Source of the DNA: Alphaproteobacteria bacterium
Lineage (GTDB): Bacteria; Pseudomonadota; Alphaproteobacteria; UBA8366; GCA-2717185
Reading direction: 5' to 3'
NCBI GenBank assembly: GCA_040905865.1
Contig: JBBDQU010000032.1
Coordinates: 1 to 40,081, forward strand
Length of the DNA stretch: 40,081 nt
A model generated the notes under the pieces. That model saw nothing but the letters and a program-made list of their open reading frames with translations, ran no database searches and had not been told where the DNA came from. Position numbers and translations under genes: made by a program. Shown in pieces: positions 8,334-40,069 of the stretch (positions are counted from its first letter, which is position 1; each line of letters begins with the position of its first letter).

Positions 8334-8855
8334 CTATTCCTGCGGATAACGCCAGGGGCTTTCCGGCTGCTTGGCGTCCTCGTCGATGGTCCAGTGGGGC
8401 AGGGAGAAGCCTTCGGCCACTTCGACATAGACCATCCTTACCCGGGTGCCGATGCCGACGCGCCGGATCATCTCCGGCGGCGCGAACTGTCCGTCCGCCG
8501 TCATCAGGTTGCCGGCGACACGCAGCGCCTCATGCTCGCTGGGCGCGCCCTTCTGGGTGTCCAGGTCGGCCAGAATGACCATGTACGGCACCTTGTCCCG
8601 GAAAGCCGGTTGAATGGGGTGGTGGACTTCCGCATAGGAATGCACCGTGCCCTTGCCCTCCACCGGGACCCAGTCGCTGTCCCGCTCGCCCGTCCAGGGG
8701 CAGGTCGTGGTCGGCGGGTAACGCAGCAGCCCGCTGGTCCGGCCGCGCTGCAAATGCAAACTGCCTTCGTGGCAGTGGCGGAAGAATTCCAGATTTTCGT
8801 GATCCAGGTCGTCGATGCTGAGCATCATGCCCATGTATTCGCCTTGTACCGGCAT
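8334..8855 (-). CDS. OB-fold (DUF35-type) partner of thiolase-like protein, degenerate zinc ribbon
   Basis: A 173-aa Zn-ribbon/OB-fold protein. The layout is standard: an N-terminal helix ('HENLEFFRHCHEGSLHLQR'), a rubredoxin-like knuckle, then the OB beta barrel ('WVPVEGKGTVHSYAEVHHPIQPAFRDKVPYMVILADLD'). In the knuckle only one of four expected cysteines remains. The region 'LQRGRTSGLLRYPPTTTCPWTG' has Gly, Ser and Thr where relatives have CxxC and CPxC, so zinc is probably not bound. Family members form complexes with thiolase-fold proteins: ChsH2 C-terminal domain with the retro-aldolase Ltp2, and HMG-CoA synthase partners. The neighbouring thiolase-like gene fits that. The start at 8855 has an AGAGGGGGAGG ribosome site. 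Two large hairpins lie between it and the upstream gene. Confidence 0.8.
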   Translation of the reverse strand: MPVQGEYMGMMLSIDDLDHENLEFFRHCHEGSLHLQRGRTSGLLRYPPTTTCPWTGERDSDWVPVEGKGTVHSYAEVHHPIQPAFRDKVPYMVILADLDTQKGAPSEHEALRVAGNLMTADGQFAPPEMIRRVGIGTRVRMVYVEVAEGFSLPHWTIDEDAKQPESPWRYPQE

Positions 8856-8876
8856 GGTTATCCTCCCCCTCTTACG

Positions 8877-8922
8877 GATCGGATCAGGATTAATGCTTCT
8901 CATCAATCCTGTGAATCCGATC
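8877..8922. repeat. Imperfect inverted repeat (hairpin element 1)
   Basis: A 19-nt left arm (8877-8895) pairs with a 22-nt right arm (8901-8922) around a 5-nt loop, with one 3-nt bulge and one mismatch. The inner arms are CAGGATTAATG and CATCAATCCTG. It lies 22 bp upstream of the DUF35 start codon on the minus strand and shares its inner core with the hairpin 64 bp away. It could be an mRNA-processing or attenuator hairpin, a REP-like element or a regulator-binding palindrome. Confidence 0.75.
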
Positions 8923-8936
8923 ACTATTAATACAGC

Positions 8937-8987
8937 AGAGCAACGATACAGGATTGATGCATAACATCGATCCTGTATCGTTGCTCT
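8937..8987. repeat. Near-perfect 23-bp inverted repeat (hairpin element 2)
   Basis: The left arm 8937-8959 and right arm 8965-8987 are complementary at 22 of 23 positions, and the remaining pair can be a G-U wobble. A 5-nt loop CATAA separates them. The inner core CAGGATTGATG / CATCGATCCTG repeats that of hairpin 1. The right arm runs into the TAG stop (8986-8988) of the minus-strand thiolase-like gene, so the structure forms at the 3' end of that message and before the DUF35 gene. There is no U tract, so it is not a classic intrinsic terminator. It may stabilise or uncouple the upstream message. Confidence 0.85.
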
Positions 8988-10248
8988 AGCGATGGTCGCG
9001 GGCCATGACCATGGCCGAGCCCGTGCCCGGATTGGCCCAGCCCAGATTGGCGCTCAGTTCGGCATTCTTCACCTGCCGGCAGCCGCCCTCGCTGTAGTCA
9101 TAGGTGTGCTGCTTCCTGCCGTCCGGTCCGACGGGGCAGGAATCGTCCGCTTCGCCGCGCAGTTGCCGGGTATTTTCGATCACCATGTTCATGCCGTGGG
9201 TATAGCCCTCGCAGAGATGGCCGCCCGAGGTGTTGTTCGGCCGCCGGCCGCCCAGCTCTATCGCGCCGGATGATACGTAATCGCCGCCTTCGCCCTTCTT
9301 GCAGAAGCCATAATCCTCGAGCTGCAGCATGGTGGTGAAGGTGAAGGCGTCATAGGAACCGGTGACGTCGATATCCTCTGGTCCGACTCCCGCGTTCGGC
9401 CACAAAATATCCTTGGCGTAATGCCCGGCGACCGTGGATATCGGCCCGTGCTGGTAGTGCATGTCGGCGCGCGGCTTGCAGACGCGCCCGGCGACCGACT
9501 GGATCACCGCCGCCCGGTTGCGGCAGTCGCGCGCCCGGTCCAGCCGGGTGACGATGACGCAGGTGGCGTTGTCGGTTTCCACGCAGCAGTCCAGCAGATG
9601 CAGCGGCTTGCAGATGATCCGGGAGGTGACCACATCCTCGACCGTATAGCGCTTCCTGTAATAGGCCTTCGGGTTGTTGGAGGCGTGTTTCGAATGCGCC
9701 ATCTTCACATGCGCCACCTGTTCGGGCGTTGTGCCGTAATCATACATGTGGCGCAGGAAGGTGGGGGCGAACATCTGTCCGGCGCTCTGCCACCCATAGG
9801 CGCGATTGTGGATCTGATCGCCGACGATGGGCACGGCGGAGCGCGCGCCGGTGCCGCCGATGCGGACCTGACTGTAGCCGTTCATCGCGCGGAAGATCGC
9901 CACCGTCTTGCACATCCCGGCCTCGATCACGCCCATGGCGATGCCGATCAGCGCCTCTATCGACGATCCGCCGCCATGCACGTCCATGTAGAAATTCAGC
10001 CGGATGCCCAGGTCGCCGGCGACGAAATTGGCGAAGGTGGAATCGTTGCCGGAATAATCCAGCATGCCGTCGATATCCGCCGCGGTCATCCCGGCGTCTT
10101 CCATCGCGTTGCCGATGGCCCATGTGGCCAGCGCCCGTGTGGTTTCATTCGATCCGCGCCGGTAGCTGGTTTCCCCGACGCCGCAGATGGCGTATTTGCC
10201 GCGCAGATATTTCTCCGACGACGCATCGATCTCGTTCGATGGCGACAT
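8986..10248 (-). CDS. Thiolase-fold lipid-transfer-like protein without Cys nucleophile
   Basis: A 420-aa protein of the SCP-x thiolase/Ltp group. The N-terminal 'YAICGVGETSYRRGSNETTRALA' and 'DIDGMLDYSG' are typical. Where degradative thiolases have the nucleophilic Cys (CxSG/S), this protein reads 'DVHGGGSSIEAL' near residues 89-99. The C-terminal 'SGGHLCEGYTHGMNMVIENTRQLRGEA' keeps the His loop. Loss of the Cys is known in Ltp2-type retro-aldolases, which cleave beta-hydroxyacyl-CoA side chains of steroids together with a DUF35 partner. Such a partner is encoded immediately downstream. The start at 10248 has an AGGGAGGGGACC ribosome site. The family is confident; retro-aldolase chemistry is inference from the missing Cys and the neighbour. 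Confidence 0.85.
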   Translation of the reverse strand: MSPSNEIDASSEKYLRGKYAICGVGETSYRRGSNETTRALATWAIGNAMEDAGMTAADIDGMLDYSGNDSTFANFVAGDLGIRLNFYMDVHGGGSSIEALIGIAMGVIEAGMCKTVAIFRAMNGYSQVRIGGTGARSAVPIVGDQIHNRAYGWQSAGQMFAPTFLRHMYDYGTTPEQVAHVKMAHSKHASNNPKAYYRKRYTVEDVVTSRIICKPLHLLDCCVETDNATCVIVTRLDRARDCRNRAAVIQSVAGRVCKPRADMHYQHGPISTVAGHYAKDILWPNAGVGPEDIDVTGSYDAFTFTTMLQLEDYGFCKKGEGGDYVSSGAIELGGRRPNNTSGGHLCEGYTHGMNMVIENTRQLRGEADDSCPVGPDGRKQHTYDYSEGGCRQVKNAELSANLGWANPGTGSAMVMARDHR

Positions 10249-10384
10249 GGTCCCCTCCCTGATGGCGCGCGTGTGTTGCGCCCGGCCATTAAAGCACACT
10301 CGACGGTATCTCGTTCAAGGGGCAAACGCGGGCGGACGGGAATTAGATTCGGATCAGCATCGGACAGGGGCGCTTCATATGAAT

Positions 10385-25769: not shown

Positions 25770-25944
25770 GACTGATTGCAGGTATTCCGATCATTGGCAC
25801 AGATAATGGCATAATTTCCGGCACCGCACCCGAAATTCATGACGATGGCCTTTCCAGGGTGCAGATGGATAAAATTTTATGAAAATACAGAACAAAATAT
25901 AGTAAATACTAGTATAAAACGATAAAATAACATTTAATTTTTAG

Positions 25945-25978
25945 TTAATAAGTATTAATATCCGTTAATACTTGTTAA
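25945..25978. promoter_or_regulatory. 14-bp inverted repeat, possible operator
   Basis: TTAATAAGTATTAA (25945-25958) and TTAATACTTGTTAA (25965-25978) are inverted copies with one mismatch, separated by 6 bp. The repeat ends 12 bp before the -35 of the promoter of the gene at 26069. Its size and position fit a dimeric regulator site, but AT-rich DNA makes chance palindromes more likely. Confidence 0.5.
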
Positions 25979-25990
25979 AATACAATTTTT

Positions 25991-40007: not shown

Positions 40008-40069
40008 GAACCGCGCTTCGGCGCGGTTCAGACCGCTGACAAACCCCTCGCCTTTGGTGAGGGGTTTGT
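40008..40069. terminator. Two hairpins downstream of rpmJ
   Basis: The first hairpin has a perfect 9-bp stem GAACCGCGC/GCGCGGTTC (40008-40016, 40021-40029) closed by a TTCG tetraloop. The second has an 11-bp stem ACAAACCCCTC/GAGGGGTTTGT (40039-40049, 40059-40069) with a 9-nt loop. Neither has a long U tract on either strand, so they may act as processing or stabilising structures or as a bidirectional terminator with the next gene, beyond the window. Confidence 0.65.

Follow-up and report, generated by a model that had tools for sequence, protein, structure and literature searches.

In the window, as we call the whole 40,081-nucleotide stretch of alphaproteobacterial DNA analysed here, two large inverted repeats stand between the gene of a thiolase-like protein and that of its OB-fold partner. 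What are these twin hairpins, and how do they come to overlap the end of a coding sequence? The original prediction had offered a mobile REP-like palindrome pair, an element of differential mRNA stability or tandem binding sites for a regulator. We consider it very likely that the two hairpins form a single copy of a palindromic MITE of the CIR/RIME kind, which is multi-copy and non-autonomous, inserted at a TA in the thiolase stop codon. Dispersed copies, compensatory changes in the arms, empty sites, ends that are mostly TA, a preference for YTAR and the coincidence with stop codons were all seen directly. We file the element as a CIR/RIME-like MITE and not as a REP, the likeness to CIR being judged from descriptions of CIR and that to RIME1 from a rhizobial repeat that is probably RIME1.

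One element of two hairpins at the thiolase stop codon

Both predicted hairpins are present, with cores 64 bp apart (8885 and 8949) and a 5-nt loop in each. The second repeat, described as almost perfect over 23 bp, has 23-nt arms that are 96% complementary, and it does overlap the stop codon: two bases of the thiolase TAG (8988-8986, minus strand) lie within the hairpin at 8937-8987. The suspicion that the structure is too regular for chance holds as well. Folded as RNA, the minus strand of 8860-9000 reaches -68.7 kcal/mol versus -36.5 +/- 3.3 kcal/mol for 200 dinucleotide shuffles (z -9.7), none of which came as low, and the element alone folded as DNA gives a z of -10.3. Hairpin A is the first-listed inverted repeat of the 40-kb window, and the core CAGGATTRATG occurs four times with at most one mismatch. 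What had to be mended in the mapping is the unit: the pair of hairpins makes up a single element at 8873-8988, with TA on both sides. On the minus strand the element runs hairpin A, linker, hairpin B, and the gene order is thiolase, element, OB-fold protein. The features are as follows.

8873-8988, minus strand: complete element, 116 bp counting both terminal TAs, for a net gain of 114 bp (from the empty-site comparison, from coordinates and sequence, and from the match to the covariance model R1 described below)
8937-8987, minus strand: hairpin A (the second one of the original prediction), arms 8937-8959 and 8965-8987, 23 nt, one mismatch, 5-nt loop
8923-8936, minus strand: AT-rich linker between the hairpins, 14 nt
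8877-8922, minus strand: hairpin B (the first one of the original prediction), 8 + 11 pairs, 3-nt bulge on the inner arm, 5-nt loop
8913-8917, no strand assigned: GANTC site (GAATC on the plus strand) in the inner arm of hairpin B, asymmetric in position, the sole GANTC in the window copy
8987-8988, no strand assigned: left TA of the putative target duplication, from comparison with loci L026, L146 and L147
8873-8874, no strand assigned: right TA of the putative target duplication, followed inward by TACGGATC and not by TAG, a departure from the family end
8986-10299, minus strand: upstream gene, thiolase-like protein (PF22691, Thiolase_C_1), 437 aa
8986-8988, minus strand: thiolase stop TAG, made by the terminal TAG of the element
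8869-8862, minus strand: ribosome-binding-like GGGGGAGG of the OB-fold gene, outside the element
8334-8855, minus strand: downstream gene, OB-fold partner (PF01796, OB_ChsH2_C), ATG at 8855-8853, the start being chosen by sequence and orthologues

The inner arms of hairpin B (8885-8895 and 8901-8911) are 11 nt long and 91% complementary, and pairing extends outward past the 3-nt bulge. Elsewhere, the window holds an AT-rich imperfect palindrome at 25936-25987 (23-nt arms, 78% complementary, 6-nt loop) and a 14-nt hairpin at 40039-40069, near the contig end. When six open reading frames of the window were searched against Pfam, four had no match.

Comparison with orthologous loci reveals the site without the element. 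The thiolase orthologues of the same genus (95% identity for L146 in genome G001, 93% for L147 in G003) have TAA as stop codon, and the ribosome-binding sequence of the OB-fold gene comes next. The empty site reads CACAAA-TAA-AGGGGGGAG in L146, with the same letters in L026, and CACAAA-TAA-AAGG in L147, while the filled site of the window reads CATCGC-TA[GAGC...GATCCG]TA-AGAGGGGG. The window has two copies of the stop-codon TA and is 114 bp longer here, and the thiolase gene now stops at a TAG composed of this TA plus the element's first base. Between the two genes lie 16 nt in the closest orthologue, L026, versus 130 nt in the window. The element is absent from all 26 thiolase orthologue junctions that were compared; in one of these, L057, the spacer is longer and its sequence different. 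Across all 80 fetched thiolase orthologue loci R1 gave a single match, at L069.

In the mechanism that we propose, a unit of the form TA, hairpin, AT-rich linker, hairpin, TA would have inserted into the TA of the former TAA stop and duplicated it. The TAG at the left end of the element would have taken over as stop with the thiolase reading frame unchanged, and the gap between the two genes would have grown from 16 to 130 nt. With a stop codon and the ribosome-binding sequence in place, the locus still encodes both proteins. If transcribed, the hairpins may shield the end of the thiolase mRNA and weaken the coupling to the downstream gene; judged from sequence, such lower coupling or 3' protection is plausible.

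Strong hairpins directly after a stop codon might also be read as intrinsic terminators, or as an attenuator between the two genes. Neither hairpin is followed by a T run on either strand and the terminator scan lists none at the element, and hence we give this reading very little chance.

The single match among the orthologues, L069:3740-3877, comes from another lineage. It is a different, GC-rich, R1-positive element that starts exactly at the stop of the same thiolase gene. The match is modest (41.3 bits) and its second hairpin folds poorly. Most simply, this is an independent insertion into the same stop codon.

Dispersed copies and maintained palindromes

A search for the core palindrome, as the original prediction had proposed, gave two different answers depending on the method. 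Pattern search and blastn suggested a single copy in the own genome, so that a refuting condition of the original prediction, the lack of other copies, appeared to apply until a structure-aware model revealed many. With the window copy as query, blastn matched only the window copy itself in this genome. The core pattern occurred at 20 places, two of them in the window and 18 with other inner letters. Across 59 genomes, blastn found matches in four, namely the own genome and G002, G005 and G009, where the relatives lie at other loci. The copies of these three genomes share one build, TAGAGC..arm..arm..GCTCTA, an AT-rich linker and a second hairpin ending in GCTCTA.

We rely on the covariance model R1, which was built from 16 aligned copies with the window copy in the training set. 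R1 matches the window copy, as a training-set member, at 8875-8988 with 79.3 bits, and at E<=0.01 it matches in 10 of 11 family genomes, the own one included, with up to 145 bits in the family. The own genome yields 129 rows at E<=0.01, both strands of one place being counted. At E<=1e-3 there are at least 121 rows, which correspond to at least 89 distinct places, and at least 41 at E<1e-9; this count scored 150 of 1339 candidates. Many dispersed copies too short to encode a transposase, as expected of a MITE, are thus found, with at least 89 places in the own genome and a length of 116 bp for the window copy. Among 114 sampled genomes of the class, eight including the own one match at E<=1e-5. 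The other 106 give no match at this threshold and serve as a rough control, the misses being weak evidence of absence since 28 candidates per genome were scored with stricter filters. Nearly all own-genome copies that the structure-aware model finds escape blastn and exact pattern searches.

Besides the window copy we read 34 own-genome copies directly, among them L186, which had served in the training set as L124. In this genome the common type is about 139 bp long and has other arm sequences. The window copy is odd for its own genome; its nearest relatives are in G002, G005 and G009. Across copies the unit is 106-143 bp long, its outer ends are inverted and it is bounded by TA. Two shorter copies of G002 (L116 and L121) seemingly kept only one hairpin. 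Elements from the window's family and from two genomes of the class were compared with plasmids and phages; one search gave three 25-nt matches with an E of 0.6 and the others gave none. In Rfam, the best hit of the window region was a microRNA family at 29 bits versus a cut-off of 70, and nine element-bearing loci gave a tRNA only.

The arms of these copies change together. Pair-keeping changes on both sides are seen at 15 of 34 consensus pairs, and 48 cells changed on both sides compare with 14.2 +/- 2.7 in shuffles. Cells are paired in 95.9% of cases versus 28.9-37.9% when the partners are slid, and one column pair takes GC, UA, AU and CG. Further pair types, a weak measure of covariation, number 30 versus 27.0 in shuffles, 55 of 500 of which came as high. 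The arms thus diverge in sequence by compensatory changes that preserve the palindromes. This upkeep could stem from selection for the fold or from one arm being corrected after the other, and the almost perfect hairpin A in the window may have arisen by such correction.

One asymmetry recurs: the outer arm has GATC where the inner arm has GATTCAC, 3 nt longer, which contains GANTC. GANTC is the methylation site of CcrM. It is found in 48 of 49 copies and at least twice in 41 of them, a trait shared with CIR. The total of 102 sites exceeds the mean of 45 (largest 64) in 200 resampled sets, and the density is 15.3 per kb in the copies versus 2.65 in the flanks. These values have to be read with care, as the copies are related to each other and an unrelated 5-mer, TCNGA, is just as dense at 15.0 per kb. 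A rough pattern places GANTC close to the hairpin A loop as well as on the inner arms, both positions being occupied in about 40 of the 49 copies.

These data bear on two of the readings that were offered at the outset. Tandem operators, recognized by a regulator that binds a CAGGATTRATG palindrome, would fit the four near-identical cores. The idea was not borne out. Copies lie at unrelated genes, their arm sequences vary widely and differ from those of the window, and the window copy itself sits downstream of a stop codon. The perfect core palindrome occurs in two of the 11 family genomes and not in the own genome, where the window copies are imperfect and hence uncounted. We regard the chance that the hairpins are operators as minimal.

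An intercistronic mRNA element, kept by selection because it shields the thiolase end or sets the ratio of thiolase to OB-fold protein, is a reading that we hold to be unlikely. In E. coli operons, REPs act in this way by protecting mRNA or setting ratios. MITE hairpins are said to stabilise mRNA or to speed its decay (PMC3733652). The stable hairpins on the sense strand, between genes that are 16 nt apart in the closest orthologue, and the compensatory variation across copies would agree with such a role. However, the element is missing from the same-genus orthologues and from all 26 junctions compared, and its copies lie at unrelated genes, next to several arrangements of neighbouring gene ends. 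The covariation, moreover, may reflect propagation or arm-from-arm correction and not a role in this mRNA. As far as the sequence tells, a role in mRNA stability at this site is possible and secondary, and would be a side effect of the insertion of a mobile element.

Target site, stop codons and candidate movers

The ends of the copies were analysed in a set of 49, from which 8 of 22 non-own loci had been dropped since they are cut by contig ends. TA stands at both ends in 34 of the copies and is missing at one or both ends in 15. Intact ends favour YTAR sites: 23 of the 34 TA-ended copies lie in YTAR and 11 do not, compared with 173 of 2859 flanking TAs and, as a near-site control, 15 of 137 TAs within 60 nt. 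For the own genome alone the value is 13 of 21. In most aligned copies the outer ends, TAGA.C..ATC, face each other as terminal inverted repeats. The common own-genome type has the right end TATAGCAC instead of the inverted TAGA.C..ATC end. A target-site duplication can be read from empty sites in three cases, the window versus L026, L146 and L147, the Rhizobium locus L228 versus L274, and L227 versus L272 and L273, with CA in the empty target of the last (see below).

TAG is found at the left end of 36 of the 49 copies, at the right end of 20 and at both ends of 16. The right end is TATAG in 19 of 35 own-genome copies; that of the window is TAC. The stop codon coincides exactly with the first triplet of the element in 22 of 61 stop-facing gene ends, by heuristic gene calls from a crude caller that erred at the OB-fold gene of the window itself. 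Considering only genes that run into the element, 22 of 32 use the stop in the first-triplet frame (p 4.5e-5 if frames were random, with p-values too small here because the copies are related).

Such dispersed palindromes with empty sites and a duplicated TA agree with the predicted mobile REP-like pair in kind, and not with a REP in the strict sense, as there is neither a consistent GTAG nor an association with a REP tyrosine transposase. A REP proper would be a GTAG-tagged palindrome moved by a REP-associated tyrosine transposase (RAYT). Palindromic form and dispersal would suit it, as would TAG stops supplied to flanking genes, which are described for GTAG REPs in PMC3733652. Y1 transposase genes do occur in 8 of the 11 family genomes. 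However, GTAG lies near an end in only 5 of 49 copies and CGTC in none, while CTAG does so in 28. The units of 106-143 bp, with their inverted outer ends and TA, also differ from REPs of 20-40 bp (PMC3733652). The check for a tyrosine transposase found no association: of 13 Y1 loci, taken with up to 1.5 kb on either side, a single one carries an element, and its Y1 match is below the cut-off. A REP proper is thus highly improbable.

For the MITE, we suggest that a transposase acting in trans moves the element, and that this mover is probably YTAR/TA-specific, such as some members of the IS5 family. Because of the TA/YTAR specificity, a DDE transposase of IS5 or IS630 type appears likeliest. 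Six IS630-type loci of the family (DDE_3, PF13358) have no matching ends, and an R1 scan of 3 of 30 IS5-type PF13340 loci gave no match. Among the family loci of PF13358, PF13340 and PF01797, which were partly surveyed and mostly in draft genomes, no transposase with matching ends was found. Genome G003 of the same genus has 32 PF13340 matches, at least 30 of them with the same score, which belong to an IS5-type insertion sequence (L229, L234-L258). The right end of this insertion sequence, ..GAGTCAGACTCT, which is the end that was resolved, differs from the element end; in a comparison of ten copies, five of nine partners aligned and the other four lie in opposite orientation.

Relation to known repeats and significance

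A rhizobial 115-bp intergenic repeat was found in 374 plasmid records. It is probably RIME1, reportedly the rhizobial intergenic repeat of Osteras et al. 1995. All 18 fetched rhizobial copies match R1 end to end with 23.7-37.6 bits on the better strand, and 16 of the 18 contain GANTC. In 8 of 14 distinct annotated Rhizobium loci a gene ends at the TAG of the element; in two others (L227, L277) the gene end lies deeper in the element, and in four none lies inside. The 8 of 14 is not an unbiased rate, since the loci were hand-picked with the rows of a gene under the match visible (16 from 40 listed). Of the 35 listed rhizobial rows not marked as annotation-free, 15 had a gene under the match. 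L281 and L292, which have no nearby annotation, and L286 and L288, which repeat a locus, were left out of the count.

An annotated acyltransferase of Rhizobium sp. N324 ends with the TAG of the element (L228), and in the element-free locus of Rhizobium sp. BT03 (L274) the acyltransferase ends with TAA at the same place. A second locus is filled in R. phaseoli R650 (L227) and empty in R744 and Rhizobium sp. N621 (L272 and L273), where the empty target is CA and not TA, so that one base change must also be assumed. On plasmid pRspBT03f of Rhizobium sp. BT03 (L275:602-1450), the CTAG that marks the left edge of the rhizobial repeat holds an IS5-family insertion sequence.

The rhizobial repeat, probably RIME1, shares with the present family the build of TAGAGC..GCTCTA, AT-rich linker and TAGAGC..TTCTA, and a TAG end that serves as stop of annotated genes. 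Its arm sequences are unrelated beyond the ends, as reflected by 23.7-37.6 bits versus 79.3 for the window copy. MITEs of the Correia/NEMIS and ERIC type are short, palindromic and non-coding and target TA. The elements studied here resemble them in these traits, as they do RUP. In contrast to these MITEs, our elements have two tandem hairpins and not one end-to-end stem, and we found no partner insertion sequence, while RUP is linked to IS630-Spn1 through its ends (PMC2229807).

CIR, the Caulobacter CcrM-associated intergenic repeats of Chen and Shapiro 2003 (as described in PMC2229807), are about 110 bp long, abundant and intergenic, and have two long inverted-repeat arms, a linker and GANTC (PMC2229807; PMC10969869). 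They occur in Caulobacter, Brucella and other Alphaproteobacteria (PMC2229807). Length, two arms with a linker, GANTC and copies in several Alphaproteobacteria make our elements closely like CIR by this description. They differ in the position of GANTC, which is described there at the terminal loop of CIR; in our copies it is found close to the hairpin A loop and on the inner arms. The passages covered by our literature search contain no account of a duplicated TA, or of insertion into stop codons, for either CIR or RIME, and this does not prove that none exists. Brucella has the palindromic repeats Bru-RS1 and Bru-RS2 of 103-106 bp (PMC3163539; PMC10800456), and IS711 inserts into Bru-RS1 at YTAR with TA duplication (PMC3163539). 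Our elements are like them by description, as short palindromic repeats of an alphaproteobacterium. GTAG REPs are likewise dispersed palindromes whose end often gives a TAG to a flanking open reading frame, and unlike our elements they are shorter, GTAG-tagged and served by a tyrosine transposase (PMC3733652). Since GTAG REPs also supply TAG stops, this trait alone is not new.

It is conceivable, and we say so tentatively as we would not wager on it, that CIR, RIME1, Bru-RS and the present repeats form one class-wide superfamily of twin hairpins that insert at YTAR/TA and are suited to stop codons. If this is true, an element with a TAG end could enter a TAA or TAG stop codon without altering the protein, and in GC-rich genomes gene ends would be the natural home of the family. 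Repeated independent insertion into the same stop, as in the window and L069, would follow from this suitability.

A 2007 review states that the mechanism of CIR mobility needs more information (PMC2229807). Empty sites, TA duplication, YTAR preference and stop replacement, in an uncultured lineage and on named Rhizobium plasmids, make mobility testable by asking which TA-duplicating transposase recognises TAGA.C ends. For annotation, these elements are a warning that such insertions can set gene ends and intercistronic gaps in Alphaproteobacteria.
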